64,000 nucleotides of DNA, taken from contig NZ_CP075185.1 of NCBI RefSeq assembly GCF_020510685.1, positions 4,555,275-4,619,274 on the forward strand. The letters run 5' to 3'. Shown here one piece after another: positions 34,109 through 58,855 of the stretch. Under the pieces are notes generated by a model, which was not told the DNA's origin, ran no database searches, and worked only from the letters and a program-made list of their open reading frames with translations. The translations under genes and the position numbers were made by a program. The first letter of the stretch is position 1; every line of letters starts with the position of its first letter. The stretch is from Dechloromonas denitrificans (GTDB lineage Bacteria > Pseudomonadota > Gammaproteobacteria > Burkholderiales > Rhodocyclaceae).

Positions 34109-34345
34109 ATGGAATCCCTTAGCCTGATACGCGATTTTCTCCAGGACCGGCTCGGCACGACGCCCGACAAGGTCACTCCCGAAGCCCCGCTCGCTACACT
34201 CGGCGTCGATTCGCTGATGATGCTCGAATTGATGTTCGAATTTGAAGACCGTTTCGGCATCACCCTCTCCAAAGACCTGAAAAGCCCCGAGACTGTCGGC
34301 GAAATGGCTGCGCTGATGGACCGGCTGCGCAGCGAACAAAGCTGA
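34109..34345 (+). CDS. Acyl carrier protein, first of the aryl-polyene operon
   Basis: The 78-residue acyl carrier protein is expected to carry the growing polyketide chain on a phosphopantetheine attached to S35 in LGVDSLMMLEL. It starts the long plus-strand operon. A second carrier protein is encoded at 35615, which is the usual two-ACP arrangement of aryl-polyene clusters. The next gene begins 3 bases after its stop. Confidence 0.92.
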   Translation: MESLSLIRDFLQDRLGTTPDKVTPEAPLATLGVDSLMMLELMFEFEDRFGITLSKDLKSPETVGEMAALMDRLRSEQS

Positions 34346-34348
34346 AGC

Positions 34349-35596
34349 ATGAACCAGCGTCGGGTGGCCATTACCGGGCTGGGGCTCGTCAGCCCCTACG
34401 GCGGCGATCTGCCGGATTTTTTCGCGCGCCTGCTGGCCGGTGAGTCGGCGGTCCGTTTTCTCCACACCGACGACGTTCCCCGGCCGTTGCGCATTCCCTT
34501 CGTCAGCTGTCCCGGCTTCAGTGCCGAGACGACGCTCGGTCGGGCACTGGCCGGGACGATGGACCGCTTCGCCCAGCTCGGTACCGCCGCCGCCTTCAGC
34601 GCCTGGGAAGATGCCGGCCTGACGCGCGGCCAGTTTCCGGAAAACCGCGACAACTGGGGCGTTGCCTGGGGTACGGCACTGGGCGGCACGCTGGCCTACG
34701 AAAAAGGCTACCGCGAGTTGTGGCAAAACGGCCGCGAGCGGGTTTCGCCGCTTTCCGTCATTCTCGGCATGAACAACGCGGCCAACGCCCACATTTCAAT
34801 CCAGCTCGGCCTTGGCGGCGTCAGCATGAGCCACACCGTGGCCTGTGCCTCGTCGGCCATCGCCATCGGCGAAGCCTTCCGCCGCGTGCGCAGCGGCGAA
34901 GCGCCGGTGATGCTGACCGGTGGTTCCGATGCGCCGCAGGCCTACGGCGTCGCCCGGGCCTGGGAAGCGTTGCGCGTCATGGCCAGCGGTGATGAACAGA
35001 CCTCGCCGCAAGCCTGTCGGCCGTTCAGCGCCGACCGCACCGGCCTGGTCCTGGCCGAGGGCGGGGCGGCCCTGGTCCTTGAAGACTGGGCCCATGCCGT
35101 CGCTCGCGGCGCCCGCATCCACGGCGAACTGGTCGGCTACGGCACGAGTTGCGACCACAGCCACCTGGTCCGTCCGGAAGCGGCCGGCCAGGTCCGGGCG
35201 CTCAACGCCGCGCTGGCCGACGGCGGCCTGACGCCCGCCGACATCGATTACGTCAACGCCCACGGCACGGCCACCGCCGAGGGCGATCCGGTCGAAGTGG
35301 CGGCGCTCCGGGCGGTATTCGGCGAGCGGGCCAGCCGCCTGCCGATCAGCGCCACCAAATCGATGCACGGCCACCAGCTCGGTGCGGCCGGCGCCATCGA
35401 GGCCATCGTCACGGTACTCGCCCTGCGCGACCAGGCCATTCCGCCGACCGCCCATCTCGCCACGCTCGACCCGGCCTGCGTCGGTGTCGACCACGTGCGC
35501 AGCGTCCGACGCGACCAGCCGTTGCGGGCCGCCTTGTCGAACTCCTTTGCCTTTGGCGGCAGCAACGCGGTACTCGCGTTCCGCGCCCCAGCCTAA
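34349..35596 (+). CDS. Beta-ketoacyl-ACP synthase (complete active site)
   Basis: The 415-residue ketosynthase has a complete Cys-His-His triad: C166 in TVACASSA, H305 in NAHGTAT, and H342 in KSMHGH. It condenses malonyl-ACP onto an acyl starter. It sits between two ACP genes in the aryl-polyene operon. It is one of two complete ketosynthases; the other is at 45424. Which one starts the chain and which extends it cannot be told from sequence here. Confidence 0.93.
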   Translation: MNQRRVAITGLGLVSPYGGDLPDFFARLLAGESAVRFLHTDDVPRPLRIPFVSCPGFSAETTLGRALAGTMDRFAQLGTAAAFSAWEDAGLTRGQFPENRDNWGVAWGTALGGTLAYEKGYRELWQNGRERVSPLSVILGMNNAANAHISIQLGLGGVSMSHTVACASSAIAIGEAFRRVRSGEAPVMLTGGSDAPQAYGVARAWEALRVMASGDEQTSPQACRPFSADRTGLVLAEGGAALVLEDWAHAVARGARIHGELVGYGTSCDHSHLVRPEAAGQVRALNAALADGGLTPADIDYVNAHGTATAEGDPVEVAALRAVFGERASRLPISATKSMHGHQLGAAGAIEAIVTVLALRDQAIPPTAHLATLDPACVGVDHVRSVRRDQPLRAALSNSFAFGGSNAVLAFRAPA

Positions 35597-35614
35597 TCCC
35601 ACGGAAGTCCTGCC

Positions 35615-35899
35615 ATGCCCCAAGAAATCTCCCCGGAAACCGTCGAAGCGCTACTGCCGGAAGTTGCCGAGCTGATCGTTACGGCGCTCAATCTCGAGGT
35701 GGCAGCCGGCGAAATCGAAGCCGATGCGCCACTGTTCGGCGAAGGCCTGGGCCTCGACTCGATCGACGTGCTGGAAATTGCCCTGGTCATTTCCAAGCGT
35801 TACGGCTTCCAGCTGCGTTCCGACAACCAGGATAACGTGCGCATCTTCACCTCGCTGCGCACGCTGGCCAGCCACATCGCCAGCCAGCGGACGAAATGA
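35615..35899 (+). CDS. Acyl carrier protein, second of the aryl-polyene operon
   Basis: The 94-residue carrier protein has the phosphopantetheine serine S49 in GLGLDSIDVLEI and the usual four-helix pattern. It differs from the first ACP (34109) in length and in having a longer N-terminal helix. It overlaps the following membrane protein by 4 bases. It probably carries the starter or growing chain in pigment synthesis. Confidence 0.92.
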   Translation: MPQEISPETVEALLPEVAELIVTALNLEVAAGEIEADAPLFGEGLGLDSIDVLEIALVISKRYGFQLRSDNQDNVRIFTSLRTLASHIASQRTK

Positions 35900-36567
35900 A
35901 ACTGACCCCGGCCATCATCCTGCGCGGTCTTGCCCTGATCATCCTCGTCATCACCTGGGCGGTGCTCGCCCACCTCGGCAGCGCCGGCGATGCCAATCGC
36001 GATTTCTCCGCCGCCCTAGCCACCGCGCCGATCGTCGCGATCGGCGTCATGCTCCTGTGGCGGGCCAGCAACCCGCTGTGGATCGCCCTCGGCTGCTTTG
36101 CCGTCCTCGCGCTGCTCGCCTGGGCCTGGCCGGCGCTCCGCCAGAACGTCCCGCTGCTCTACTACATCCAGCATCTCGGGACCAATCTGGCGCTCGCCAC
36201 GCTGTTCGGGCGCAGCCTGTTCGGCGGCGGCGAATCCCTCGTCACGCAGTTCGCCCGGATGGCCCATTGCGGCGCCATTTCCGGCGCCCAGGCCCGCTAC
36301 ACCCGGCAAGTCACCATCGCCTGGACGATCTTCTTCCTGAGCACCGCGCTCGTCTCAAGCGGCCTGTTCTGGCTCGGCCAGATGGCTGCCTGGTCGATTT
36401 TCGCCAATCTGCTGACCGTGCCGATGGTCGCCTTGATGTTCATCGTCGAACACCTCTGTCGCCAGCGCATCCTGCCGCCGGACGACCGCTCCACCATCGC
36501 CGATACCATTCGCGGCTACCGCGCCGCGATGCAGCATCGCACCGACACGCTGGCCAACCACCCATGA
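35896..36567 (+). CDS. COG4648-type membrane protein of the aryl-polyene operon
   Basis: The 223-residue protein has about five to six hydrophobic segments and the conserved stretch LLYYIQHLGTNLALA with GRSLFGGGESLVTQ. Proteins of this type occur in aryl-polyene clusters between the ACP and the ligase and have no proven role. It overlaps both neighbours by 4 bases. Confidence 0.85.
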   Translation: MKLTPAIILRGLALIILVITWAVLAHLGSAGDANRDFSAALATAPIVAIGVMLLWRASNPLWIALGCFAVLALLAWAWPALRQNVPLLYYIQHLGTNLALATLFGRSLFGGGESLVTQFARMAHCGAISGAQARYTRQVTIAWTIFFLSTALVSSGLFWLGQMAAWSIFANLLTVPMVALMFIVEHLCRQRILPPDDRSTIADTIRGYRAAMQHRTDTLANHP

Positions 36568-37907
36568 GCTCGGTGCCGCTGCTCGGGCACACCAGCCTCG
36601 ACGACATTTTTGCCTGGCGCCCGAGCGGGCCGCTCAGGGTCCGCGACTTCCTGGCCGACGTCTACGCGCTGGCCAGGCAACTGCCGGCCGGCCGGCACCT
36701 GCTCAATGTCTGCCTGGACCGCTACCACTTCACCGTCGGCCTGGCGGCCGGCCTGATCAGCGAGAAGATCAGCCTGCAGCCTTCGTCGCAATCGGCCGAA
36801 ACGCTGCGCCAGATCCAGACCGACTGTCCCGACGTATTCTGCCTGTGCGACAGCGAGTTCGACAGTCTCGACCTGCCGCGCCTCGATTTCCCCGCGCTGA
36901 CCGGCGCCGACCCGGCCAGCGTGACGGAAATCCCGGCCATCCCGACCGAGCGCATCGCCGCCTGCCTGTTCACCTCCGGGTCGACCGGCCGGCCGATGTC
37001 GCATTACAAGCACTGGGGCCGGCTGGTCAAAAACGGCCGGGCCGGCGCCGAGCGCCTCGGCCTGCTTGACCAACGGCATTCGGTGGTCGGCACCGTACCG
37101 GCCCAGCACAGCTACGGCTTCGAATCGACCGCGCTGATCGCCCTGCATGGCAACGCGCCGTTCTGGTCGGGCAAGCCGTTCTACCCGCAGGACATCGTGG
37201 CCGCCCTCGAAGCCGTGCCGGCGCCGCGCCTGCTGGTCACCACCCCGTTTCATCTGGCGGCGCTGCTCAACGCCGGGCTGGAACTCCCGGCGGTCGATCT
37301 GCTGCTCTCGGCCACCGCGCCGCTTTCGCCGGAACTGGCCGAGGCGGCCGAGCGTCGCTTCGCGGCACCGCTGTTCGAGATCTACGGCTCGACGGAGAGC
37401 GGCCAGATCGCCAGCCGGCAAACCACCGACGGCCCCGCCTGGACCTTGCTGGCCGACGTCCGGCTGGCTCAGGAAAACGACCTGACCACCGCCTTCGGCG
37501 GCCACGTCGAGGGCAGGGTACCGCTGTCGGACATCATCGAGCTGATCGACCCCGAGCATTTCCTGCTCCACGGCCGGCATGCTGATGTCGTCAACATTGC
37601 CGGCAAACGGACCTCGCTGGCTTACCTCAACCACCAGATCGCGGCGATTCCCGGTGTCGTCGATGGCGCCTTCTTCCTGCCCGACGAGGCCACGCCGGAC
37701 GGCATCACCCGCCTGTGCGCCTTTGTCGTCGCGCCGGAACTGAACAGCCGGCAGGTACTAAGCGCACTACGCGAGCGGGTCGAACCGATCTTTCTGCCCC
37801 GGCCGCTGGTTTTCGTCGATGTGCTGCCGCGCAACACCACCGGCAAGCTGCCGCGCAACCAGTTGCAGGCGCTTTACGCCGCCAAAGTCAGCGATGCCCG
37901 GCACTGA
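36564..37907 (+). CDS. AMP-forming aryl-acid/acyl ligase of the aryl-polyene operon
   Basis: The 447-residue adenylate-forming enzyme probably activates the aromatic starter acid and loads it on an ACP. It has the phosphate loop TSGSTGRPM, the YGSTESGQ motif and the C-terminal lysine motif RNTTGKLPRN. ATG 36564 is chosen, overlapping the previous stop; longer readings run through the upstream gene. It overlaps the next gene by 14 bases. Confidence 0.9.
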   Translation: MSSVPLLGHTSLDDIFAWRPSGPLRVRDFLADVYALARQLPAGRHLLNVCLDRYHFTVGLAAGLISEKISLQPSSQSAETLRQIQTDCPDVFCLCDSEFDSLDLPRLDFPALTGADPASVTEIPAIPTERIAACLFTSGSTGRPMSHYKHWGRLVKNGRAGAERLGLLDQRHSVVGTVPAQHSYGFESTALIALHGNAPFWSGKPFYPQDIVAALEAVPAPRLLVTTPFHLAALLNAGLELPAVDLLLSATAPLSPELAEAAERRFAAPLFEIYGSTESGQIASRQTTDGPAWTLLADVRLAQENDLTTAFGGHVEGRVPLSDIIELIDPEHFLLHGRHADVVNIAGKRTSLAYLNHQIAAIPGVVDGAFFLPDEATPDGITRLCAFVVAPELNSRQVLSALRERVEPIFLPRPLVFVDVLPRNTTGKLPRNQLQALYAAKVSDARH

Positions 37908-38199
37908 TTTCGACTGGTGCGTGCCGGCCGATCATCCCGCCTTTGCCGGCCATTTTCCCGGCCGGCCGATCGTGCCGGGCGTCGTGCTGGTCGACCGCGC
38001 TATCCTCTTTGCCGAGCAACTGCTCGGCCGGCCGGTCGACAATTGGCAGATCGGCAACGCCAAATTTTTCAGCCCGGTCGGCCCGAGTGAGGTGCTGACC
38101 TTCACGCTTGAGCGCAAGGCGAGCGGCGCCATTGCCTTCACGGTGCGGGCGGCAACACGCGATGTCGCCGCCGGCAGCCTGACTCCACCCGCGCCATGA
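37894..38199 (+). CDS. Hotdog-fold 3-hydroxyacyl-ACP dehydratase
   Basis: The 101-residue protein is a FabZ/FabA-like hotdog protein. The catalytic histidine is H20 in AFAGHFPGRPIVPG. Such short dehydratases act with a partner in aryl-polyene synthesis; the likely partner is at 47411. ATG 37894 gives the normal start; the longer reading adds unrelated residues. Confidence 0.88.
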   Translation: MPGTDFDWCVPADHPAFAGHFPGRPIVPGVVLVDRAILFAEQLLGRPVDNWQIGNAKFFSPVGPSEVLTFTLERKASGAIAFTVRAATRDVAAGSLTPPAP

Positions 38200-39107
38200 C
38201 CGCTGACCAGCCCGGCGGGGCCGAATGGCGGCAGGAGAAGGAAAAAAGCAATCTGGCCATTCTCCGGCTGATGGTCTGGATCTCGCTGACCTTCGGCCGC
38301 CGCATCGGCCGGCTCGTCCTCTACGGCATCGCCGCCTACTACGTGCTGTGCGCGCCCAAGGCCCGGAATTTCAGCCGCGCCTACCTGCACCGGGCGCTCG
38401 GCCGCTGGGCCGAGTGGTCGGACGGTTTCCGCCATGTCCTCAGCTTCGCCAGTACGGTTCATGACCGCATCTACCTGCTGAACGACCGCTTCGACCTGTT
38501 CGACATCGAGGTGATCGGCGCCGAGGCGCTGCATGCCGCGCTGGAAAAGCAGCCCGGCGCCCTGCTGATCGGCGCCCACCTCGGCAGTTTCGAAGTGCTG
38601 CGCGCCGTCGGCCGGGGCAGGGCGGGGCTGAAGGTCGCCATGCTGATGTACGAAGAAAACGCCCGCAAGATCAACGCCACGCTGGCCGCGATCAACCCAG
38701 CCGCCAGCGAGGACATCATTCCGCTCGGCCGCATGGATTCGATGCTGCAGGCCCGCGACTGGCTCGACGAAGGCTATCTGGTCGGCATGCTGGCCGACCG
38801 CGGTCTGGGTGACGACAGCACGGTCGATTGCGATTTCCTTGGGGAAATGGCGCCGTTTCCGGTCGGCCCCTTCCGCATCGCGGCGATGCTGCGCCGCCCG
38901 GTCTTCTTCATGACCGGCCTCTACCTCGGCGGCAACCGCTACCAGATCCATTTCGAGGCCCTGGCCGATTTCTCGGACACGCCGCGCGAAGCCCGCCAGG
39001 CGGCGATGCGCGCCGCCCAGCAAGCGTACGCCGAGCGACTGAGTCATTTTTGCCGGCTGGCCCCCTACAATTGGTTCAACTTCTTCGATTTCTGGCAGAA
39101 AAAATGA
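38196..39107 (+). CDS. LpxL/HtrB-like acyltransferase
   Basis: The 303-residue protein is a lysophospholipid/lauroyl acyltransferase-like enzyme with the HX4E motif in IGAHLGSFE. An N-terminal membrane anchor (about 25-55) places it at the inner membrane. In aryl-polyene clusters such enzymes are thought to join the polyene to a lipid or sugar-lipid. Overlaps on both sides indicate tight coupling. Confidence 0.88.
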   Translation: MTADQPGGAEWRQEKEKSNLAILRLMVWISLTFGRRIGRLVLYGIAAYYVLCAPKARNFSRAYLHRALGRWAEWSDGFRHVLSFASTVHDRIYLLNDRFDLFDIEVIGAEALHAALEKQPGALLIGAHLGSFEVLRAVGRGRAGLKVAMLMYEENARKINATLAAINPAASEDIIPLGRMDSMLQARDWLDEGYLVGMLADRGLGDDSTVDCDFLGEMAPFPVGPFRIAAMLRRPVFFMTGLYLGGNRYQIHFEALADFSDTPREARQAAMRAAQQAYAERLSHFCRLAPYNWFNFFDFWQKK

Positions 39108-39673
39108 TCAACCGCCTGTTTGCCGGCCTGCTGCTGGCCGCCCTTGCCCTACCGGCCTCTGCCGCCTTCGATGTCGGCCAGCTGATGACCGACCTCGCCC
39201 GGCACAAGGGGGGCAAGGCCAAATTCGTCGAGAAGAAGTACATCTCGCTGCTCGACAAGCCGGTCGTGTCCACCGGCGAAATGAGCTACACCGCCCCCGA
39301 CCGGCTGGAAAAACGCACCCTGACGCCCAAGCCCGAACTGCTGCTGCTCGACAAGGAGCTGCTGAGCATCGAGCGGGAAAAGCAGAAACTGACCATCAAC
39401 CTGAGCAACCAGCCCGAAGCGCTGGCTTTCATCGACAGTATCCGCGGCACGCTGACCGGCAACCGCGCCGCGCTGGAAAAGAACTACCTGCTGCATCTGG
39501 CGGGCACCCCGGATAAGTGGGTACTCACCATGCTGCCCAGCGAGCAGAAGATCGCCGCGCTAGTCCTGCGCATTGTCGTCAGCGGCAGCAAGAACCAGAT
39601 CCGCAGCATCGAATACCTGCAGGCCGATGGCGACCGCTCGGTGCTGAGCATCGAACCGCTCGAGGTCAAATGA
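39104..39673 (+). CDS. LolA-like periplasmic carrier protein
   Basis: The 189-residue protein has a signal peptide (MINRLFAGLLLAALALPASA) and the LolA pattern: KAKFVEKKYISLLDKPV then SYTAPDRLEKRTL. LolA-like proteins shuttle hydrophobic molecules across the periplasm, and one is conserved in aryl-polyene clusters. ATG 39104 overlaps the acyltransferase stop. Confidence 0.88.
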   Translation: MINRLFAGLLLAALALPASAAFDVGQLMTDLARHKGGKAKFVEKKYISLLDKPVVSTGEMSYTAPDRLEKRTLTPKPELLLLDKELLSIEREKQKLTINLSNQPEALAFIDSIRGTLTGNRAALEKNYLLHLAGTPDKWVLTMLPSEQKIAALVLRIVVSGSKNQIRSIEYLQADGDRSVLSIEPLEVK

Positions 39674-41994
39674 GCCGGGCCGGCCGCACCTTCCTGCTCT
39701 GGCTGCTGGCCATGCTGGCCGGGGCAGCCATCGTCTGGAACAGCCGCTTTTCCGCCGACATGTCCTTCTTCCTGCCGGCCCATCCGAGCGCCGAGCAGCA
39801 GGTGCTGGTCGACCAACTGAAGGAGGGCGCCGTCGCCCGGCTGCTGATGGTCTCGATCGGCGGTGGCGAGTCGGCGCAACGCGCCGCGCTGTCACGCGAA
39901 CTACGCGGCCGACTGGCTAAGCTGCCGGCTTTCGTTTCGGTGCAGAACGGCGAGGCCGGCAGCGAAGCGGCCGATCGCGACTTCCTGTTCCGGCACCGCT
40001 ACCTGCTCAGCCCGGCGGTCAGCCCGGAGCGTTTCACGGAAGAGGGCCTGCGCCGCGCCGTCGGCAACAGCATCGACCTTCTCGCCTCGCCGGCCGGCAT
40101 GCTGCTCAAGCCGCTGCTGACCCGCGATCCGACCGGCGAACTGGTCGAACAGCTGGCCGGCCTCAATGCCGGCGCCCAGCCGAACAGCCGCGACGGCGTC
40201 TGGGCTTCGCGCGACGGCGAGCGGGCCATGTTGCTGGTCCAGACTGCCGCCCTCGGCTCCGATACCGACGGCCAGGAGACGGCGCTCAACACCATCCGCC
40301 AGCAGTTCGCCGCCAGCGCCCAGGCCGTCGGCCTGGCCGAGGCCAAACTGCAGCTTTCCGGCCCCGGGCTGTTCGCCGTCAATTCGCGGGCGACGATCAA
40401 GGACGAAGTGGCGCGGCTGTCGCTGATCAGCACCTTCGCCATCGTCGCCGTGCTGCTGTTCACCTATCGTTCCTTCCGCCTGCTCGGACTCGGCCTGCTG
40501 CCCGTCGTTTCCGGCACGCTGGCCGGCGTCGTCGCGGTCAGCCTGCTGTTCGGCACGGTCTATGGCATCACCGTCGGTTTCGGTGCGGCGCTGATCGGCG
40601 AGTCGGTCGATTACGGCATCTATTATTTCGTCCAGTCCGGACGCAATGGGCTGGCCGCCTGGCGCGCCCGTTTCTGGCCGACCGTCCGCCTCGGCGTGCT
40701 GACCTCGGTGTGCGGATTCGGCGCCTTGCTCTTCTCCGGTTTTCCCGGCCTCGCCCAACTCGGCCTGTATGCGCTGTCCGGAGTGATCGCCGCCGCCGCC
40801 GTCACCCGGTTCGTGTTGCCGCCGCTGACCGGCGAGCAGATCGGCATGCGCGACCTGGCGCCGCTCGGCCGGCGCCTGGCCGCCGCCAGCCAGGCTCTGC
40901 ATGTGCTGCGCTGGCCGGTGCTGGTACTGGCCATCGGCGCGACCGCCGTGCTGATCACCCAGCGCGACCAACTGTGGAACCCCGAATTGTCGGCCCTCAG
41001 CCCGGTCAGTCCGGCCGACCAGGCGGTCGACATGGCCCTGCGCGCCGACATCAGCACGCCCGATTCGCGCTATCTGGTGGTTATCCATGGCGCCACCCGC
41101 GAAGCCGCACTGCAGGCGGCCGAAAAGACCGGGGCGCACCTCGACCGGCTGGTTGCCCAGGGCCTGATCGCCGGCTACGACAGCCCGGCCCGTTTTCTGC
41201 CCAGCCAGGCAACACAGGAGCAGCGGCGGGCCAGCCTGCCGGCGGCCGACGATTTACGCCGCAAGCTGCAGGCAGCACTGGTCGACTCGCCGCTCGCCGC
41301 CAACAAGCTGGAAGCTTTCATCGCCGATGTCGACAATGCCCGCCAGGCGCCGACCATCAATCGCGACGCGCTGGCCGGCACCAGCCTGGCCTTGGCGGTC
41401 GATGCGCTGCTGCTCAATCACCCGGCCGGCTGGAGCGGCCTGCTGCCGCTGCGCACCGGGCCGCAGGCCATCGACAGCGCACAGTTGCGGGCGGCGCTGG
41501 CCGGTTCCGGGGCGCTGTTCATCGACATGAAGGGCGAATTCGACAAGCTCTACAACGATTACCTGCACGAAGCCATGCTGCTCGCCCTGGGCGGCGTCCT
41601 CGCCATCACCGTGCTGCTCGCCCTGACCCTGCGCTCGCCGCGCCGGCTGGCGGCGCTGCTGCTGCCGCTGGTCCTCGCCGTGGTGATCGTCATCGCCGGC
41701 CTGCATCTGCTCGGCGAACGCCTGCACCTGCTGCACCTGATCGGCATGCTGCTGATCGTTGCCGTCGGTTCCAACTACGCGCTGTTCTTCGACCGGACCG
41801 AAAGACATCGCCCGCTTGACCCGGAAACGCTGGCCTCGATGCTGATCGCCAACCTGACCACGGCGATCGGTTTCGGCACGCTGGCCCTATCCGAGGTGCC
41901 GATCCTGCAGGCCGTCGGGATGACGGTCGGACCGGGGGCCATCCTGGCGCTGCTGTTCTCGGCCATTTTCGTTCCACGTGAAACGGCGGCATGA
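39670..41994 (+). CDS. MMPL/RND-type exporter of the aryl-polyene operon
   Basis: The 774-residue protein has two repeats, each with one N-terminal segment, a large periplasmic loop and a block of five or six membrane segments (about 255-400 and 620-770). The motif VGFGAALIGESVDYGIYYF and its second-half equivalent IVAVGSNYALFF are typical of MMPL proteins. It probably moves the lipidated polyene from the inner membrane. ATG 39670 overlaps the LolA-like stop. A parS-type site lies at its 3' end. Confidence 0.9.
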   Translation: MSRAGRTFLLWLLAMLAGAAIVWNSRFSADMSFFLPAHPSAEQQVLVDQLKEGAVARLLMVSIGGGESAQRAALSRELRGRLAKLPAFVSVQNGEAGSEAADRDFLFRHRYLLSPAVSPERFTEEGLRRAVGNSIDLLASPAGMLLKPLLTRDPTGELVEQLAGLNAGAQPNSRDGVWASRDGERAMLLVQTAALGSDTDGQETALNTIRQQFAASAQAVGLAEAKLQLSGPGLFAVNSRATIKDEVARLSLISTFAIVAVLLFTYRSFRLLGLGLLPVVSGTLAGVVAVSLLFGTVYGITVGFGAALIGESVDYGIYYFVQSGRNGLAAWRARFWPTVRLGVLTSVCGFGALLFSGFPGLAQLGLYALSGVIAAAAVTRFVLPPLTGEQIGMRDLAPLGRRLAAASQALHVLRWPVLVLAIGATAVLITQRDQLWNPELSALSPVSPADQAVDMALRADISTPDSRYLVVIHGATREAALQAAEKTGAHLDRLVAQGLIAGYDSPARFLPSQATQEQRRASLPAADDLRRKLQAALVDSPLAANKLEAFIADVDNARQAPTINRDALAGTSLALAVDALLLNHPAGWSGLLPLRTGPQAIDSAQLRAALAGSGALFIDMKGEFDKLYNDYLHEAMLLALGGVLAITVLLALTLRSPRRLAALLLPLVLAVVIVIAGLHLLGERLHLLHLIGMLLIVAVGSNYALFFDRTERHRPLDPETLASMLIANLTTAIGFGTLALSEVPILQAVGMTVGPGAILALLFSAIFVPRETAA
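41971..41984. other. parS-type palindrome
   Basis: GTTCCACGTGAAAC matches GTTNCACGTGAAAC exactly. It lies within the last codons of the MMPL exporter, 12.7 kb from the site at 29264 and 13.1 kb from the site at 55110. Confidence 0.65.
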
Positions 41995-42638: not shown

Positions 42639-42642
42639 GCCC

Positions 42643-44162: not shown

Positions 44163-44166
44163 GCGC

Positions 44167-50907: not shown

Positions 50908-50982
50908 CGTAAGGCCTTGACGCTAATCAGCTGTTCGGAAATGCGCATGCTAGCGGCAAGCGCCCGAAAGTGGCAAAGATTC

Positions 50983-51741
50983 TCAGGGCTTGCGCCCGAG
51001 ATACTCGCGAAAGACGCCGAAGGTAATCGAGCACTCGACATCGACAAAACCCGCCCGGCGCATGGCGTCAAGAATGTGTTCGGACTCGAGGGCGACCTCG
51101 ATGGTGTCGCCGTAGTATTGCCACAGCAGTTTGACGTCGGCGTGGCTGCCGGTCAGGCGGGCGAGGAAGGGGACCACCACACCGATATAGGCGCGCAGCA
51201 GGAACTGGCCGAGTCGGCTGGCTGGCCGGCTGATTTCCATGATGCAGACGCGACCGCCCGGCCGCAGCACGCGCTGGTATTCGCCGAAGGCCAGATCGAG
51301 ATCGCCGACATGGCGCAGGGCGTAGCCCATCGACACGAAATCGACATACTTGTCGGGCAGCGGAATCGACTCGGCGTAGGCCTCGATGGTCTCGACATCG
51401 AGTTTCTTGCGCAGTTCGGCGAGCATGCCGGGCGACGGATCGAGCGCCAGCAAGCGGCCCTCCGGACCGATCAGCTGCTGGCCCGCGCTGGCCACCAGGC
51501 CGGTCCCGGCCGCCACATCGAGCAAGGTCATGCCGCGGCGCAGGCCATTGCGCCGCAACACATCGCGCCGATACCAGGCGCCGCTGCCCAGGGCCGTGAT
51601 CCGCTCGGCCTTGTCGTAGCCCCCGGCCGCCTGGTCGAACATGGCGCGGGTCACGGTGCGCCGCTCCTCCTCGCCGGCAAAATAGCTTTCCAGGCGCGGA
51701 TCGGCCTTCATCGCGGCGGTAGGGGTGGCGGCTTCAGTCAT
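50983..51741 (-). CDS. UbiE/COQ5-like SAM methyltransferase
   Basis: The 252-residue protein has SAM motif I TLLDVAAGTGLVAS and the UbiE-like blocks MGYALRHVGDLD and RVLRPGGRVCIMEIS. The housekeeping ubiE gene is usually about 240-250 residues and sits with ubiB. Here the gene ends a pigment tailoring run, so a role in methylating the aryl group is more likely. That choice is inference. Confidence 0.85.
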   Translation of the reverse strand: MTEAATPTAAMKADPRLESYFAGEEERRTVTRAMFDQAAGGYDKAERITALGSGAWYRRDVLRRNGLRRGMTLLDVAAGTGLVASAGQQLIGPEGRLLALDPSPGMLAELRKKLDVETIEAYAESIPLPDKYVDFVSMGYALRHVGDLDLAFGEYQRVLRPGGRVCIMEISRPASRLGQFLLRAYIGVVVPFLARLTGSHADVKLLWQYYGDTIEVALESEHILDAMRRAGFVDVECSITFGVFREYLGRKP

Positions 51742-51757
51742 GGAGTCGATGTCGCAT

Positions 51758-52522
51758 TCAGTTGGGTGATGACAGGTGGCGCCAGATCAGCCGTGGCAGG
51801 CGAATCAGGAAGCCAAGAAAGAGCCGGGTGTGCATCCAGCTCAGCAAGGTGTTGTCGCGCAGATAGCGAAAATGCGAGACGCCGCCTTCGTCGGCCCGGA
51901 AATAGCGCACCGGCGCCGCGATATTGACCGGCCGGACACCGGCCCAGCACAGGCGAACGACCGCTTCCGGGTCGAAATCGAAACGGCGCATCCAGCGGTT
52001 GGCCTGCATGATCCGCCGCAACGGAGCGATCGGATAGACGCGAAAGCCGTACAGCGAATCGCCGATTCCCATCCACAGGGTTTCCAGATTGGCCCAGCCG
52101 TTCGAGACCTTGCGGCCATTGACGCGCAGGGCCGGGGCATCGGCGGCGAACACCGGCTTGCCGAGAACCATGGTTTCCGGTCGGGCCTGCGAAGCGGCCA
52201 TGAAGGCGGGAATCAGCTCGGCCGGATGCTGGCCATCCGAATCCATCGTCAGCACGTGCGTGTATCCGGCGGCTTCGGCCTCGGTGAGGCCGGCCAGCAC
52301 GGCCGAACCCTTGCCGCGATTGACCGGCAGGACGATCACTTTCAAACCCGGCATTTCGCTCGCCAAGGCCTGCAGACGCTCGGTGCTGCCATCGGTGCTG
52401 CCGTCGACGACGACCCAGACCGGCGTCCACTGGGCGAGGGCGGCCCGCACCGTGGCGAGGACCTTGGGACCGGGGTTGTAGCTGGGAATCAGCACGAGGT
52501 GGGTAGCGGAAAGTTCCGGCAT
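51758..52522 (-). CDS. Family 2 glycosyltransferase in the pigment operon
   Basis: The 254-residue protein has a GT-A fold: LVLIPSYNPGPKV, then VVDGSTDGSTE and the metal motif LTMDSDGQHP. It uses a nucleotide sugar, probably to add a sugar to the lipid anchor of the pigment. One C-terminal hydrophobic stretch may attach it to the membrane. A single fused acyltransferase-glycosyltransferase occurs in some related clusters; here the two are separate neighbouring genes. Confidence 0.88.
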   Translation of the reverse strand: MPELSATHLVLIPSYNPGPKVLATVRAALAQWTPVWVVVDGSTDGSTERLQALASEMPGLKVIVLPVNRGKGSAVLAGLTEAEAAGYTHVLTMDSDGQHPAELIPAFMAASQARPETMVLGKPVFAADAPALRVNGRKVSNGWANLETLWMGIGDSLYGFRVYPIAPLRRIMQANRWMRRFDFDPEAVVRLCWAGVRPVNIAAPVRYFRADEGGVSHFRYLRDNTLLSWMHTRLFLGFLIRLPRLIWRHLSSPN

Positions 52523-52531
52523 TGCTTTGCT

Positions 52532-53308
52532 TCAGTGAGCGACGGTGGATGGGGAAGCGGATGCCTGTTCCGCGCGGAAATAGGCTTCGAGTTCGCCGGT
52601 AAATGCCTCGACATTGGCCGGCGGCGCGAACCGCCGCCCCAGCCGGATGCGGCAGTGCAGCGGCAAACGCGGCGCCTTGAACAGCGGCCACGCTTTGCCG
52701 AGATAGGGCGAGGAGAACTCGATGATCAAGGTCTGCACCGGAATGCCGGTTCGCGTCGCGATCAGTCCAGTGGCGGAGGTGCACCGATCGACGGGAAAAT
52801 TCACGGTGCGGGTGCCCTCGGGAAAGATCAGCAACTGGGCGCCGCCCTGCAACTCCTCGCGGGCGCTGAGGATCATTTCCAGCGGCGAACTGTTGCGGAT
52901 ATAACGCGCCAGCCGCGCTCCGGCCCCGAACAGGAGATTGTCGAGCAAGATCGCCTTGGCGACGCAGACGACATTGGGCAGGCGCGAGACGATGAGCACC
53001 GCATCAAGCCGGGAAGGGTGGTTGGCAGCCAGGATCAACGGGCCCTGGTGACGCAGTTGATCGAGTTCGGAGAGATCGAAACGACAGGGAAAGAGCAGCG
53101 AAACGAGGTGCAGCGTGGTGCGGAAGGCATCCATGATCATGTAGCGGCCCCAGCGCTGCCCGATGCGCCGCGGCAGCAGCGCCGAAAAAACCAGCGCGAA
53201 CGGTATCCAGGCCAGGCTGATCAGGGACATCGAAGTGAAGCCGATGACCATTGCGGCGTATTCGTAGGCAATCCACAGCGGATTACCCGCGTGCTGCCGA
53301 TCAGTCAT
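52532..53308 (-). CDS. 1-acylglycerol-3-phosphate-type acyltransferase
   Basis: The 258-residue protein has the PlsC motifs HX4D (ANHPSRLD), FPEGTRT and an N-terminal membrane segment (about 14-45). It transfers an acyl group to a lipid or glycan acceptor. It overlaps the MipA gene by 8 bases and is followed by the glycosyltransferase after 9 bases. Likely part of lipid anchoring of the pigment. Confidence 0.88.
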   Translation of the reverse strand: MTDRQHAGNPLWIAYEYAAMVIGFTSMSLISLAWIPFALVFSALLPRRIGQRWGRYMIMDAFRTTLHLVSLLFPCRFDLSELDQLRHQGPLILAANHPSRLDAVLIVSRLPNVVCVAKAILLDNLLFGAGARLARYIRNSSPLEMILSAREELQGGAQLLIFPEGTRTVNFPVDRCTSATGLIATRTGIPVQTLIIEFSSPYLGKAWPLFKAPRLPLHCRIRLGRRFAPPANVEAFTGELEAYFRAEQASASPSTVAH

Positions 53309-54149
53309 TCACCAACACACGGGTCGACGACTCACCGAGCACCCAGGTGATGGCCAGGCCGGCGGCGAAATAATCCTTTTGCCGAACCAGCGGGCTATCC
53401 GCGAAGGTCGAACCGCTCAGGTTGTCGTAGCGGATAAAGCTGCCGACCCAGTATTTCGGGAAGCGCTTCGACAAGGCCACCAGATACTGCATCCCGGCGT
53501 AGCCCGAAGTGGCTTCGTAGGCCGGCCGGCTGGCCGTCGCAAACTGCGGCGCCACCGAGTAGTAGTAGGCGTGCTGGCGCTTGTCGCCGAACAGCGGCCC
53601 GGCCAGCATGCCGAGATTCCAGCCCGGCATGTTCGGCAGATCGGTGATGTCCATGTTCAGCTTGGGATGAAAAACCCAGCCGATATCCTTCGGCGAACCT
53701 TCGACGGTGAAGGCCGCGCGCAAGGGCAGCAGCAGCTTGACGAAACGTGCCCGGTTTTCCGAACGCCAGAAAGTGAGATCGAGCTGCGGCCCGATTTCGA
53801 AGGTCGCTTCAAGATCCGACATGTTGTTGCGCGCCTTGATGTCGTCGCTCGGCGCCGGTGGCGAGAGCGCCAGGCTGAGCGTCAGATCGACCCGCTCGGA
53901 ATCGAAAATGCTGCCGCGAATACCGTGCCGGTCGGCCTTGAAGAAGTCGCCGTTATAGGTGAAGTGCGGTACCGGCATCAGAAAATTGTTGGTCTGGTCG
54001 GAACCCCGGTACGACGGAAAACTGAATGCCGCCACGCCGACACCGATCTCCCACAGCGGCCTTTCCTCGGCGGCCTGCGCGACCAGCGCGACAGCAGCGA
54101 GGCCGACGGTGGCGAGACGGGCAATCCGGATTTTGATCGAGGTGGCCAT
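53301..54149 (-). CDS. MipA/OmpV-type outer-membrane protein
   Basis: The 282-residue protein has a signal peptide (IRIARLATVGLAAVALVAQA) and the MipA/OmpV beta-barrel pattern: WEIGVGVAAFSFPSYRGSD, then many alternating hydrophobic strands. A terminal part has KDYFAAGLAITWVLG. MipA in E. coli links murein enzymes; OmpV-like proteins are outer-membrane barrels. Its place among pigment genes suggests a surface role. ATG 54149 overlaps the chorismatase stop by one base; the much longer reading runs through the upstream gene and is rejected. Confidence 0.85.
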   Translation of the reverse strand: MATSIKIRIARLATVGLAAVALVAQAAEERPLWEIGVGVAAFSFPSYRGSDQTNNFLMPVPHFTYNGDFFKADRHGIRGSIFDSERVDLTLSLALSPPAPSDDIKARNNMSDLEATFEIGPQLDLTFWRSENRARFVKLLLPLRAAFTVEGSPKDIGWVFHPKLNMDITDLPNMPGWNLGMLAGPLFGDKRQHAYYYSVAPQFATASRPAYEATSGYAGMQYLVALSKRFPKYWVGSFIRYDNLSGSTFADSPLVRQKDYFAAGLAITWVLGESSTRVLVND

Positions 54150-55174
54150 CAGCAATTCCCCAGCGCGTGCGAGGCCAGTGCCTCGATTTCCAGTAACAGA
54201 TCGTGCCGGCAGATATCCGCCTGCACATATACGATTTCGGCTGTCCCGCCGATCAAGCCGGCCAGCGTTTCGCGAACCAGTGGAAAATCGGCGGCATGGC
54301 GAACGTAAACCCGATAGGACAGCTCGGGCAAGGCGTAAGACGTCGAACGGGCCTGACGATTGGCTTCGCCGAGCACTGCGGCGACATTGGCCAACGCCTC
54401 CCGGCACTGCCCGGCGACATCGCCCGGATGCACCGTCAGGTGGCCGACGATACTCGCCGTACCGGAAATGAACAGGATTTCCTGGCCCGGCGGATAGACC
54501 AGTGCGGCGCGCGAAAACGTCGGGCTGCGCGGGCCGTAGTCGGCCGGGTAGTCGTAGGCACTGACCTGGCGCGGGTTCTCGACGGCGACGGCCGGTTGGT
54601 CGCCGGCCATGAAGGCGATCGACAGCGGCCCGCCGGTCAGGCCGATGGCGCAGGCGGCCGGCACATTGCCGGTGGCGCCGCGCCGGAATTCGAGAAAGGC
54701 ATCCTGGCGGCCGATATTGAACTGGCGATAGCGTTCCAGGCCGTCGGTTTCTCGATTGATCGCAGCGAGGTAGTTCCAGACCCGCCAGAGATGCGGCAAG
54801 TTCTTCGCATCGAGCAGGCGAAAAATGCGCCGGTAGGCTTCCTGACTCGCCGCCTGCAGCGCCGAACAGCCCGGCGTCGCAGTGAAATCGGCCTCGTCGA
54901 GATCGATTACCCCGTAGAGCAACTGGCCAGCCCGACACCAGGCGATGCCTTCGCTGTTGCCGGTAAGCACGGCTTGGCCGGCCAGCCAGGTTTCATGGAT
55001 GACCGGGCCGGTGGCCCCGAGCAAGGGGGCAACAATGCGCTGCACCGGCCACTCGGGCAAGCTGGCGCCGGGTTGATCGCCAAGCATGGCGCCGCCCAGC
55101 ACACGGTCCGTTTCACGTGAAACGAGGTCGGCAAGCCGGGCGGAGAAAACCTGAGAAATCAATGGCAAATTCAC
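54149..55174 (-). CDS. Chorismatase (XanB2/FkbO/Hyg5-like)
   Basis: The 341-residue protein matches chorismatases, which split chorismate to a hydroxybenzoate (3-HBA and/or 4-HBA) and pyruvate. Seen here: RVWNYLAAINRE, ERYRQFNIGRQDAF, GNVPAACAIG, ARSTSYALPELSYRVYVR and EIVYVQADICRHDLLLEIEA. In Xanthomonas XanB2 provides the aryl starter for xanthomonadin. The product ratio (3-HBA or 4-HBA) cannot be read from the sequence. It overlaps the halogenase-like gene by one base. A perfect parS palindrome lies in its 5' end. Confidence 0.9.
   Translation of the reverse strand: MNLPLISQVFSARLADLVSRETDRVLGGAMLGDQPGASLPEWPVQRIVAPLLGATGPVIHETWLAGQAVLTGNSEGIAWCRAGQLLYGVIDLDEADFTATPGCSALQAASQEAYRRIFRLLDAKNLPHLWRVWNYLAAINRETDGLERYRQFNIGRQDAFLEFRRGATGNVPAACAIGLTGGPLSIAFMAGDQPAVAVENPRQVSAYDYPADYGPRSPTFSRAALVYPPGQEILFISGTASIVGHLTVHPGDVAGQCREALANVAAVLGEANRQARSTSYALPELSYRVYVRHAADFPLVRETLAGLIGGTAEIVYVQADICRHDLLLEIEALASHALGNC
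55110..55123. other. parS-type palindrome (perfect)
   Basis: GTTTCACGTGAAAC is a perfect copy of the ParB site core. It lies near the start of the chorismatase gene. It is about 9 kb left of the origin-side DNA, within the origin-proximal zone where parS sites usually cluster. Confidence 0.75.
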
Positions 55175-56511
55175 TAAGCGTTATAGACGGGCGGAACTTC
55201 GACCGGACGAATATTGAAGTGGCGACGTTTCCAGCCCATGAAAGCGCGCTTTGGCTGAATGATATTGGCGATGTAATAAAGCAGTTTGAACATCCAGATC
55301 GAACGCCAGATCGGCGTCTTGCCGAAAATATCGCCGGCCAGCACCGACAGCAGGGCTTCCTTGACGCGGAAGATGTTCTTCGGAAACATGAAGAAGTCGC
55401 GCATGATCGGATTGGTCACCCGATAGATGAACCAGGAAAATTCCTTCGGGCCGTGCTTCATCAACGCATCGAAACGCTTCAGCGCAGCGGCCGCCTGGGC
55501 CGGCTTGCTCAGGCAAGTATCGATGGCCTCGGCGCCGAGTACGCCGCTGTTCATAGCGAGCAGCACGCCGGAAGAAAATACCGGATCGATGAAGGCATAG
55601 GCATCGCCGAGCAGCAGATAGTTCTGACCGTGGTTGCGCTCGGAGACATAGGAGAAATTGCCGGTCGCCTCGACCTTGTTGACCAGTTTGGCGTCCTTCA
55701 AACGCTCGGCCAGGGCCGGACACATGGCAATGCCGTCGATCAGGAACTGCTCGATGTTCCGCTCGCCAATGGTCTTCATGTAATACGGCCAAGTCACCAT
55801 GCCGATGCTGGTGACATCGTCCATCATCGGGATGAACCAGAACCAGCCGTGTTCAAACCAGAAAATGGTGATGTTGCCGGCGGCCTGCCCGTCGTGACGC
55901 TTGGCTCCGGAGAAATGGCCGTAAATCGCCGAACTGTTGTGTTTCGGGTTGCGGTGCTTGATCTGGAAGCGGTTGGCGAGAAAAGTGTCACGCCCGGAAG
56001 CATCGACGACGAAGCGGGCCTGCCACGCAAACTCGCGACCATCGTCGTGTTGCGCCTTGATCACCGCGCCGCTGTTATCAGGCAGAAAATCGACCGTCTT
56101 CGCCTTGCAGCATTCATGTACCTCAACGCCCTTCTTCTCGGCATTGCGCAGCAGGATGGTATCGAATTCGGCGCGCTTGACCTGATAGGCATAGGGCATC
56201 GTCTTGTCCCAGGCATCCGCAAAATGGAAGCACTGCGCCATCTCATGGTGCGGCGAAACGAACTCGGCGCCCCATTTTTCCATGCCGATCGCCTTGATTT
56301 CTTCAGCCACCCCCATCCGCTCGAAGAGCGGCAGGTTGGCCGGCAACAAGGATTCGCCGATATGAAAACGCGGGTGCCGGGCCTTTTCCAGCAGCACGAC
56401 GCGATAACCCTTGGCCGCCAGCAACGGCGCTATGGTCGTTCCGGCCGGGCCGCCGCCGATTACCAGAACATCACATTCCCGACGTTCGATTTCCTTCGCT
56501 TGCTGTTCCAT
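55174..56511 (-). CDS. Flavin-dependent halogenase-like enzyme
   Basis: The 445-residue FAD enzyme has the dinucleotide motif GGGPAG at 19-24 and GESLLP at 52-57. K79 sits in MEKWGAEF at the position of the catalytic lysine of halogenases. The halogenase motif GWxWxIP is exact (G222-W223-F-W225-F-I227-P228). The FxxPxxSxG motif also matches (F307, P310, S313, G315). It is therefore a good halogenase candidate, possibly acting on the phenol or aryl head. A plain monooxygenase cannot be excluded. Confidence 0.82.
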   Translation of the reverse strand: MEQQAKEIERRECDVLVIGGGPAGTTIAPLLAAKGYRVVLLEKARHPRFHIGESLLPANLPLFERMGVAEEIKAIGMEKWGAEFVSPHHEMAQCFHFADAWDKTMPYAYQVKRAEFDTILLRNAEKKGVEVHECCKAKTVDFLPDNSGAVIKAQHDDGREFAWQARFVVDASGRDTFLANRFQIKHRNPKHNSSAIYGHFSGAKRHDGQAAGNITIFWFEHGWFWFIPMMDDVTSIGMVTWPYYMKTIGERNIEQFLIDGIAMCPALAERLKDAKLVNKVEATGNFSYVSERNHGQNYLLLGDAYAFIDPVFSSGVLLAMNSGVLGAEAIDTCLSKPAQAAAALKRFDALMKHGPKEFSWFIYRVTNPIMRDFFMFPKNIFRVKEALLSVLAGDIFGKTPIWRSIWMFKLLYYIANIIQPKRAFMGWKRRHFNIRPVEVPPVYNA

Positions 56512-56549
56512 TGGTTCAAGCCTGTCAATTTCTCTGTGGCGGCGAAGAA

Positions 56550-57185
56550 TTATTTGCCTTTATAGGTCATGTAGCCAACCGTTTCCGAATGGCCGTCGAT
56601 CTTGCTTACCTTGTTGCCTGACCAATACACGTAATAGGGGCCGAAACTCGACCACCAGTAACGCCAATATGGCCCGTCCAGCTTCGGGTTTTCATTGGTC
56701 TGCGGATGACCGACCGCCATGATCACCTGTTCCTTGCTCATCCCCTTCATCAACTGCCCCTTGGCGATGGCGTTGCGAACCGCCGGCGCAAACTTGGCAA
56801 TCTTCAGCTTCGGGTCTTCCTGCACGACCACCTTGTTCACCCACTGCTCGGTGCTTTCCTCGGCCCGGCCATAGTCATGGCCCAGGCGCATCGCCTTGCC
56901 ATTGACCTCGATATAGGCACGATATCCGTCGATCTTCTTGACGCTGATCGGCGTACCCACCGGAATGAACGCCAACTGGGCGAGATTTGAATCACTAATC
57001 CAGTCGCCTTCGTAATGCAGGTTACAGCAGGCATAACCGCTACGGACGACGGATTCGTTTTTGGCCGGGGCAAGCGGTTTGCTGTCTTCCGGCTTGCTGC
57101 CGGAACCCCCGCAGGCGGTCAGCGAAGCAAGCAGCGCGACTGCAGTCAACAACCGAAATTGGCCAAAAATGCGGTATTTTTTCAT
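56550..57185 (-). CDS. Lipoprotein with BamE/SmpA-like C-terminal part
   Basis: The 211-residue protein has a lipoprotein signal (LLTAVALLASLTAC) and a Ser/Gly/Pro linker. A first domain follows with two Cys (GYACCNLHYEG). The end resembles BamE/SmpA (GMSKEQVIMAVGHPQTN). It lies 23 bases after the radical SAM gene and 38 bases before the halogenase-like gene. ATG 57185 is chosen because upstream residues do not make a signal peptide. Function is unknown. Confidence 0.75.
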   Translation of the reverse strand: MKKYRIFGQFRLLTAVALLASLTACGGSGSKPEDSKPLAPAKNESVVRSGYACCNLHYEGDWISDSNLAQLAFIPVGTPISVKKIDGYRAYIEVNGKAMRLGHDYGRAEESTEQWVNKVVVQEDPKLKIAKFAPAVRNAIAKGQLMKGMSKEQVIMAVGHPQTNENPKLDGPYWRYWWSSFGPYYVYWSGNKVSKIDGHSETVGYMTYKGK

Positions 57186-57208
57186 GGTCAACCTCCCCCG
57201 GGCGGCGA

Positions 57209-58855
57209 TTATACCGCTGCTTGCAAGCTCGACGGCGTACAACAGGCGGTCGATTCTTCCATCACCTGCAGCACGGTTTTCATTGCCTCGCGCCGTGAAA
57301 TTTTGATCGGCGACATTGAGACGATGTTATCGACCTGCAATTCCGGGCTGAGGAAAGGCTTGATGCCGATCGGCTGACGGGGATGCAGTGCAAATTCGCG
57401 CTTGGCCTTTTCGAGCTGCTCCTTGTTGGCACTGAAGTAGCGCGCGGCGGCAATGGTCTCCGGCAGGTGCTTGAGTACGTGCCACAAGCTCCAGCGATGG
57501 GCCCACAAGCGCTTGGCGAAGCGGTGGCGATAGCCCTTGCTGTCGTAGAAGCGTTTGACGTGCCAGTTGTACAGCGCGTCCATTTCCTCGCGCGATGAAA
57601 AACCATGCGGCAGGAAAACGAAATTCAGACAGTTCATCAGGCGCCAATCCTCGATGAAATCGCCGGATTCGCCGCTGACGCACTCGTCCCAGATCGGCGC
57701 GCCGTGCAGCGGACTGAACTTGGTCATGTTCATCTCGTCGAGTTCCAGCGACAGGATGAAATCGCTGGTCGTCCTGACGGTTTCCGGCGTCTCGCCGGGC
57801 ATCCCGAAAATGAACAGGCCCTTGGCGCGCATCCCGGCCGCGTGGATCTGCCGCACCGTGTCGCGCACGGCGTCGAGCGTGACGCCGGCCTTGTGGCGTT
57901 CCATCATTGCCGGATCGGCCGATTCGACGCCCATCGAAACCATCAGCACACCCGCCTGCTTGAGCTTGGCGAGCATTTCGTCCGAGGTATGGCCGGTGCG
58001 GATGGCGCAATTCCACTGGATGCCGAGCGGCTTTTCGATCAGCAACTCGCACAAGTCCATGACGCGCTGCTTCTTGGCGGTGAACAGGTCGTCGTACATG
58101 TTGATGTGATAGACCCCGAAGTTATCGCGCAGGTACTTCATGTGGTCGTAGGTGTATTGCGCCGAATTGGTCTTGTACAGCCGCTCGAACACCGTCCGGT
58201 CGCAGAACGAACAGGTGTAGGGGCAGCCGCGCGAAGTGATCATCGTCGCCCCGTAGCGCTTTTCGTAGGCAAACAGCGGCAGATGGTAGGCGTGCGGGAA
58301 GCCGGCCAGTTTTTCGTAGGCGGGAAAGGGCAGTTCGTCGAGATCGAGGATGCGGTCGCGGCGCGGATTGACGCGGATCTTGCCTGCCTCGTCGCGATAG
58401 ATCAGATTGCCGATCTCTTTCAGCGGTTTACCGTCAGCCAGTTCCAGCATCGCGCCTTCGCCTTCGCCGATGACCAGATAGTCGATTTCCGGAAAGTGTT
58501 CGAGGATCGGCGCGCCCAGCGAGGAAACATGAACATTGCCGAAAACAATCTTGATTTCCGGCCGGCGCTCGCGGATATAGGCGGCGATTTCGAAGGCATC
58601 CATGAAACCAGAAGTGGTCGCCGAAAAACCGACCATTTCGGGATCGCTGGCCAGCACGATCTCGGCATTCTCGGCGATGCCGGGTGGCGAATAAGGACCG
58701 AGGCAATCGTGTAGGGCGACGTTGTGGCCGAATTTTTCCAGCCAGGAAGCCAGTTGCATGATGCCGATTGGCGGCATGCGGTTAGCCAGTACCGAAAAAT
58801 CCGGTTGCCCCGGAACAAAATTGAAGCCAGCGGGGTGTACGAGCGTGATGCGCAT
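57209..58855 (-). CDS. B12-binding radical SAM enzyme
   Basis: The 548-residue protein has an N-terminal cobalamin-binding fold (about 1-150; no canonical DxHxxG, but an FGNVHVS region). A radical SAM domain follows with the CxxxCxxC cluster C211, C215, C218 in GCPYTCSFCDR. B12 radical SAM enzymes often methylate unactivated carbons. It is likely the first gene of the minus-strand pigment tailoring operon. Substrate is unknown; one could be the polyene or its lipid. Confidence 0.88.
   Translation of the reverse strand: MRITLVHPAGFNFVPGQPDFSVLANRMPPIGIMQLASWLEKFGHNVALHDCLGPYSPPGIAENAEIVLASDPEMVGFSATTSGFMDAFEIAAYIRERRPEIKIVFGNVHVSSLGAPILEHFPEIDYLVIGEGEGAMLELADGKPLKEIGNLIYRDEAGKIRVNPRRDRILDLDELPFPAYEKLAGFPHAYHLPLFAYEKRYGATMITSRGCPYTCSFCDRTVFERLYKTNSAQYTYDHMKYLRDNFGVYHINMYDDLFTAKKQRVMDLCELLIEKPLGIQWNCAIRTGHTSDEMLAKLKQAGVLMVSMGVESADPAMMERHKAGVTLDAVRDTVRQIHAAGMRAKGLFIFGMPGETPETVRTTSDFILSLELDEMNMTKFSPLHGAPIWDECVSGESGDFIEDWRLMNCLNFVFLPHGFSSREEMDALYNWHVKRFYDSKGYRHRFAKRLWAHRWSLWHVLKHLPETIAAARYFSANKEQLEKAKREFALHPRQPIGIKPFLSPELQVDNIVSMSPIKISRREAMKTVLQVMEESTACCTPSSLQAAV

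Follow-up and report, generated by a model that had tools for sequence, protein, structure and literature searches.

What is encoded by the tightly packed genes at positions 34109-58855 of the window, and is any part of it new? The window is a 64,000-nucleotide stretch of Dechloromonas denitrificans DNA (contig NZ_CP075185.1, positions 4,555,275 to 4,619,274) and forms the final 64 kb of a single-contig genome of 4.62 Mb. A sequence-only reading had proposed a xanthomonadin-like aryl-polyene locus of the type II polyketide synthase kind with its own hydroxybenzoate supply and a halogenase candidate, in an unusual arrangement that might give a new pigment. Herein, the region is assigned, with a probability of about 90%, to a complete aryl-polyene cluster of the xanthomonadin/arcuflavin type, a class of yellow membrane pigments that is already known. 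The new element is the gene of a B12-binding radical S-adenosylmethionine (SAM) enzyme at 57209-58855; the rest of the cluster is of a known type.

Gene content and organization of the cluster

The genes form two convergent operons across 34109-58855. The plus-strand run (34109-48576) contains 17 genes, and 11 of its 16 junctions overlap by 1-14 bases, as had been seen before. The nine genes of the minus-strand run (49708-58855) are separated by gaps of 9-75 bases or overlap by 1-8 bases. Domain, PDB and homologue searches gave the following assignments, labelled after the arc genes of Azoarcus sp. BH72.

34109..34345, plus: acyl carrier protein 1 (ACP1; PF00550, 1.8e-11)
34349..35596, plus: full-length FabF-type ketosynthase 1, beside ACP1 (PF00109/PF02801)
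35615..35899, plus: ArcV-like acyl carrier protein 2 (PF00550; NF006617, 136.8 bits, cut-off 70)
35896..36567, plus: ArcU-like hydrophobic protein (position and homologues)
36564..37907, plus: ArcT-like AMP-dependent ligase, predicted for 3-hydroxybenzoate (PF00501, 1.8e-15; PF13193)
37894..38199, plus: ArcS-like dehydratase (PF07977 above cut-off; ApeI-like PF22818 below cut-off)
38196..39107, plus: ArcR-like acyltransferase (PF03279, 2.6e-11)
39104..39673, plus: ArcQ-like LolA carrier protein (PF19574, 1e-18)
39670..41994, plus: ArcP-like MMPL/RND exporter (PF03176, 2e-14)
41991..42638, plus: ArcO-like alpha/beta hydrolase (weak Hydrolase_4 match below cut-off; homologues in arc clusters)
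42643..43443, plus: ArcN-like polysaccharide deacetylase (PF01522, 4.5e-25)
43440..44162, plus: ArcM-like methyltransferase (PF13649, 3.4e-08; no NCBIfam match)
44167..45369, plus: DUF1615 lipoprotein-like protein in the ArcL position (PF07759, 4.4e-137)
45424..46617, plus: full-length ArcK-like chain-elongating ketosynthase (NF006618, 552 bits, cut-off 407)
46614..47417, plus: ArcJ-like short N-terminal ketosynthase (PF13723, 4.4e-25; PDB 6qsp_B and 7f28_A, E about 1e-6)
47411..47857, plus: ArcI-like dehydratase (position and homologues)
47857..48576, plus: ArcH-like 3-ketoacyl-ACP reductase of the short-chain dehydrogenase/reductase type (NF004200, 377 bits, cut-off 273)
49003..49680, between the two runs: DnaJ-like gene (domain search)
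49708..50907, minus: ArcG-like Na/H antiporter (PF00999, 5e-29)
50983..51741, minus: UbiE-like methyltransferase in the ArcF position (PF01209, 1.3e-29; below the NCBIfam UbiE cut-offs)
51758..52522, minus: ArcE-like family 2 glycosyltransferase (PF00535, 5e-19)
52532..53308, minus: ArcD-like acyltransferase (PF01553, 1.2e-13)
53301..54149, minus: ArcC-like MipA outer-membrane protein (PF06629, 3e-40)
54149..55174, minus: ArcB/XanB2-like chorismatase of the FkbO/Hyg5 type (PF21168, 1.4e-38; PDB 4bps, FkbO, 4e-51)
55174..56511, minus: ArcA-like flavin-dependent halogenase-like protein (PF04820, 1.1e-31; PDB halogenases 8zop and 3e1t)
56550..57185, minus: small lipoprotein-like protein, weakly BamE-like (PF04355, 0.006, below cut-off)
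57209..58855, minus: B12-binding radical SAM enzyme (PF02310 and PF04055)

All parts that define the class were found: a XanB2/ArcB-type chorismatase inside the cluster (Pfam and PDB matches), an aryl AMP ligase (PF00501/PF13193), a type II ketosynthase with a short partner, a reductase, a dehydratase (that at 47411-47857 by position and homologues) and an acyl carrier protein (ACP), and a LolA protein with an exporter, acyltransferases and a glycosyltransferase. The ArcJ-like protein is, by its sequence, the probable chain-length factor. The chorismatase scored 237 bits with TIGR04444, below the cut-off of 325. These gene families and the match to the arcuflavin cluster bear out the xanthomonadin-like assignment, and the chorismatase bears out the hydroxybenzoate supply. 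The genes named earlier are present at their coordinates, and the genome is Rhodocyclales-like as supposed; left unnamed were the DUF1615 protein, the polysaccharide deacetylase, the methyltransferase at 43440-44162, the MipA protein, the antiporter-like protein and the BamE-like lipoprotein.

Pfam E-values as low as 4e-137 and a gene order kept in 46 of 79 named loci exclude chance by far. These 79 loci were retrieved via the chorismatase. In 46 of them, including Azonexus, Dechloromonas, Hydrogenophaga and Zoogloea, the chorismatase run converges on the reductase run. The chorismatase diverges from the ligase operon in 10 (Aquitalea and similar), and the remaining 23 are short, do not reach far enough or have a different layout. 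The layout is therefore not new. The expectation of an unusual arrangement is not supported: the same gene set makes arcuflavin in BH72, and a Dechloromonas aromatica RCB cluster was listed in 2014 (PMC3949708). Among the genes regarded as extra, the glycosyltransferase, the acyltransferase and the antiporter belong to the BH72 set, and 14 of the 79 loci also have the UbiE-like methyltransferase; the radical SAM gene held up as a real companion that is not listed in the BH72 gene table (PMC3949708).

An ordinary or auxiliary fatty-acid system that makes no pigment would also have ketosynthases and a reductase of FabF/FabG-like families, as are present here. However, such a system is contradicted by the gene set, with its chorismatase, aryl ligase, short ketosynthase and LolA/MMPL export, and by an order kept with the proven arcuflavin cluster. 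This alternative is extremely improbable and was rejected.

Several observations weigh against the aryl-polyene assignment. The ArcF position holds a UbiE-like methyltransferase in the window and is annotated otherwise in BH72, and the ArcL annotation differs too (PMC3949708). The ArcU-like protein had no match in Pfam or NCBIfam and the ArcI-like dehydratase had none in the profile searches, so that position and homologues are the only evidence for these two genes. No pigment has been seen so far for the organism of the window.

The DUF1615 protein lies inside the polyene operon, adjoins the ketosynthase and is present in several relatives, on the opposite strand in one of them (L036).

The dialkylresorcinol locus and the predicted product

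What would the cluster produce? Arcuflavin of BH72, published in 2014, couples an aryl polyene to a dialkylresorcinol; it is non-halogenated, with the formula C41H52O4 (PMC3949708). The colour of BH72 is lost upon insertion into arcK or arcT, ArcB makes 3-hydroxybenzoate, and ArcT adenylates 3-hydroxybenzoate in vitro (PMC3949708). Similarly to BH72, the genome of the window carries a separate dialkylresorcinol (dar) locus with darA and darB (PMC3949708). This second locus, outside the view of the sequence-only reading, starts from G000:C1:2574201 (G000 being the genome of the window) and contains a darA-like gene, a DarB-family ketosynthase, a DarG-family protein and a BtrH-like protein. DarB scored 615 bits with the StlD/DarB family (cut-off 450) and DarG 172 bits (cut-off 70); darA had no profile match and was recognised by position and homologues. 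Since the genome holds darA, darB and darG, an arcuflavin-like polyene-dialkylresorcinol ester is predicted as the likely product. Two findings count against this prediction: DarB reached 506 bits with a stricter DarB model, below its cut-off of 550, and about 2 Mb separate the dar locus from the window.

From the observed gene families, gene order, linkage and dar locus, we infer a pathway whose chemistry is drawn from work on BH72, Lysobacter and E. coli. The starter of the E. coli aryl polyene (APE) is 4-hydroxybenzoate. Here, comparison with ArcB and ArcT suggests 3-hydroxybenzoate both as the product of the chorismatase and as the substrate of the ligase, which would load it onto an ACP. 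Elongation of the starter to the polyene would be carried out by the ketosynthase and its short chain-length partner, together with the reductase and the dehydratases, and a methyltransferase would cap the aryl hydroxyl. The acyl- and glycosyltransferases, LolA and the MMPL exporter would anchor the polyene and carry it to the outer membrane, the radical SAM enzyme may act as an optional tailoring enzyme, and the final ester would shield against light and oxidants.

Ketosynthase 1 (34349-35596) scored 387.6 bits with NF005589, barely above the cut-off of 387, and 393 bits with TIGR03150, below the cut-off of 494. Because its orthologue adjoins dar genes including darA in G270 (L098), ketosynthase 1 may serve the dialkylresorcinol side. 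Close relatives of ketosynthase 1 and ACP1 (34109-35596) were also seen in L046 and L084; few retrieved stretches extend there.

The halogenase-like flavoprotein

The closest solved structures to the flavoprotein at 55174-56511 in the PDB search were halogenases, and every NCBIfam match was below cut-off. The protein retains GWFWFIP and an aligned Lys. Among 68 matched loci, which include the window twice and two other duplicates, GWxWxIP was present in all 68 and the Lys in 67, the sole exception being a truncated match. We take these two features to be halogenase signatures.

Does this enzyme halogenate the polyene? If so, the product would be a xanthomonadin carrying bromine or chlorine, like that of Xanthomonas, and the dar locus would be a separate pathway. 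The alignment to solved halogenases, the conserved residues and the halogenase gene of the Xanthomonas xanthomonadin clusters (PMC3691225) speak for it. However, BH72 carries an ArcA homologue and its pigment is non-halogenated when grown in LB medium, and its polyene and dar loci together yield the hybrid (PMC3949708). Halogenation of the polyene is considered unlikely. A halogenated product is not predicted from this gene because BH72 has ArcA and yet makes a pigment without halogen; a halogenase-like gene by itself is no predictor of a halogenated pigment.

The B12 radical SAM gene

Is the radical SAM gene part of the pigment pathway? Its product has a B12-binding domain and a radical SAM domain with CxxxCxxC, and the closest named protein is 99% identical (Azonexus sp. 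IMCC34842). It is probably the first gene of the ArcA operon; tauE lies 71 bases upstream on the same strand.

Co-occurrence with the chorismatase was counted in an order sample (n = 200), a family sample (n = 101) and a class sample (n = 369); the genome of the window is in all three, and G111, a genome of the same genus, in two. The radical SAM gene was found in 4, 11 and 6 genomes, respectively, and the chorismatase in 25, 21 and 66. Both were present in 4/4, 10/11 and 6/6 of the radical-SAM genomes, and in total the chorismatase was present in 17 of 18 distinct ones. Fisher tests, uncorrected for ancestry, gave 2e-4, 1.8e-7 and 2.7e-5. When the family sample was collapsed to genera, 8 of 9 radical-SAM genera had the chorismatase (p = 1.4e-5); when the genus of the window was removed from the order sample, two radical-SAM genomes were left (p = 0.013). 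Five of the six proteins in the class sample are merely 31-34% identical to that of the window. A new search of the order sample with a distant class protein (E <= 1e-60) returned the same four genes alone and no nearer relative. In the family sample, the ArcA homologue was present in 8/11 radical-SAM genomes vs 17/101 overall, and the dialkylresorcinol link was weaker (darA in 5/11 vs 11/101; p = 0.002). As a control, the HpnJ profile (E <= 1e-40) found other B12 radical SAM genes in 4/101 genomes beyond the 11 (G571, G581, G586 and G634), with the chorismatase in one of the four (G634), numbers too small to weigh much.

Linkage was also observed. In 9 of the 18 genomes (G000, G111, G024, G182, G582, G614, G627, G270 and G377) the gene is next to arc or dar genes, with at most one small gene intervening, and its site varies. 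It stands ahead of ArcA in the window, G111 and G582, after an ArcA-like gene in G377, after the glycosyltransferase in G024 and G182, and before the chorismatase in G614. In G627 it is flanked by dar-side genes and an ArcV-type ACP, and in G270 it lies between ketosynthase 1 and an ArcV-type ACP with dar genes adjacent. In G589 and G645 it is flanked by the arc ligase operon on one side and the dar operon on the other, at distances of about 9 kb from each in G589 and about 17 and 12 kb in G645. The linkage in G377 was scored by the ArcA-like neighbour alone. Three genomes were set aside: G300 (3.6 kb contig), G626 (contig stops after the neighbouring lipoprotein gene) and G588 (matched once on a contig of 3.1 kb and partially at the edge of another, in whose first 8 kb there is no arc gene). 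Among the 79 named loci, 58 have an ArcA homologue and at least 37 the radical SAM gene, some stretches being too short; in each of these 37 it shares the strand of ArcA and lies no more than 1.2 kb upstream of it. Identity to the window is 76-77% for the radical SAM proteins of G024 and G182 and 37-73% for their arc proteins.

The gene could instead be a mere chromosomal neighbour on the mnmE side, unrelated to the pigment. In many Azonexaceae it does sit between mnmE/tauE and the arc genes, and no linkage was seen in G603, G606, G498 and G515. Against this stand the embedded positions elsewhere among arc and dar genes (G024, G182, G614, G627 and G270) and the genome-level co-occurrence in three samples. 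The neighbour explanation is therefore rather unlikely. A role in the pigment pathway is moderately favoured, with three findings to its disadvantage: the gene is missing from 21/25, 11/21 and 60/66 chorismatase genomes (order, family and class), G603 holds it without a chorismatase, and in 4 of the 18 genomes the stretch covered reveals no linkage (the four named above, G515 being scored on a 9 kb contig).

Within the pigment pathway, the protein is probably an optional tailoring enzyme. A more specific proposal, which we put forward tentatively and at somewhat less than even odds, is that it performs a tailoring step so far unrecognised in aryl-polyene or polyene-dialkylresorcinol pigments, in which a methyl group would be placed on an unreactive aryl-ring or polyene carbon, or the lipid anchor would be reworked. 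The m/z 121 aryl fragment carries the sole methionine-derived methyl of arcuflavin, which was published as O-methyl (PMC3949708). This assignment is open to test, because mass alone cannot tell O-methyl from ring C-methyl. The fold comparison fails to discriminate methylase, ring contraction and dehydration; the model has a mean pLDDT (predicted local distance difference test) of 72.6, with residues 210-226 and 381-414 below 50 and residues past about 467 barely covered.

An HpnJ-like formation of a cyclitol head group in the hopanoid style, with the glycosyltransferase, deacetylase, radical SAM and MMPL proteins, was also considered. It was dropped because HpnI was absent from the matches of the glycosyltransferase and the radical SAM protein scored 176 bits with the curated NCBIfam model of HpnJ (hopanoid), far below the cut-off of 577.6.

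An Azoarcus olearius protein is listed as 100% identical to the radical SAM protein of G589 (one difference by eye), and BH72 is now assigned to this species (PMC7825797). BH72, the arcuflavin producer itself, therefore very probably carries the gene. In the arcuflavin paper, Table 1 does not include it and the main text lacks the terms radical SAM and B12 (PMC3949708). No radical SAM step in aryl-polyene, xanthomonadin or flexirubin pigments was found described in the open-access literature searched, which is no proof that none has been published. If the role is true, a widespread pigment family has an enzyme step not found described, and this companion gene outweighs the cluster itself. A close relative is present in the species of BH72, for which insertion mutants exist.

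Additional observations were made around this gene. The arc and dar genes of G024 form one joined cluster, and a second B12 radical SAM gene (L102:185-1624; 26% identical) heads it at the opposite end from the first, giving two such enzymes in one pigment cluster. The genome of the window has a second B12 radical SAM match to the HpnJ profile at G000:C1:982338. An Azonexus stretch (L027) has mnmE, tauE, the small lipoprotein-like gene and arc genes without a radical SAM match, a natural absence. In many Azonexaceae loci the small, weakly BamE-like protein (56550-57185) is encoded between ArcA and the radical SAM gene; it is also present in L027, which showed no radical SAM gene, and in L036, whose flank is too short to tell.

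Surroundings of the cluster

The genes tauE, mnmE and yidC lie at 58927-63008, after the cluster and at the contig end. Such surroundings are the usual replication-origin neighbourhood. Rfam and tRNA scans of the 64-kb window gave no matches, and just short, imperfect repeats were found at 20000-26000.

Comparison with known pigment clusters

The gene set ArcA to ArcV of BH72 is matched gene for gene, in equal order by locus numbers (PMC3949708, Table 1). The BH72 arc genes are split over two loci, whereas the window has one convergent pair. Unlike the BH72 arc set, the window has the radical SAM and lipoprotein genes ahead of ArcA, and the kinase/regulator pair ArcW/X of BH72 had no counterpart among the scanned neighbours in the window (PMC3949708). 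The arcuflavin-like cluster reported in 2014 for the related D. aromatica RCB was compared at the level of a figure legend and text (PMC3949708).

The xanthomonadin-type clusters of Xanthomonas and Lysobacter enzymogenes similarly have a type II polyene synthase with an unusual ketosynthase/chain-length pair. The halogenase gene is present in the Xanthomonas cluster, as in the window, and absent from the Lysobacter cluster; the Xanthomonas product is brominated (PMC3691225). Xanthomonadins, unlike arcuflavin, have no dialkylresorcinol (PMC3949708). The E. coli APE cluster shares ACPs, a ketosynthase and chain-length factor, two dehydratases, a LolA-like protein, an RND transporter and acyltransferases; unlike the window, its Table 1 has no chorismatase, halogenase or radical SAM gene (PMC8253772). 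The cluster in the window is one further genome in a well-described pigment class, and not a new kind.

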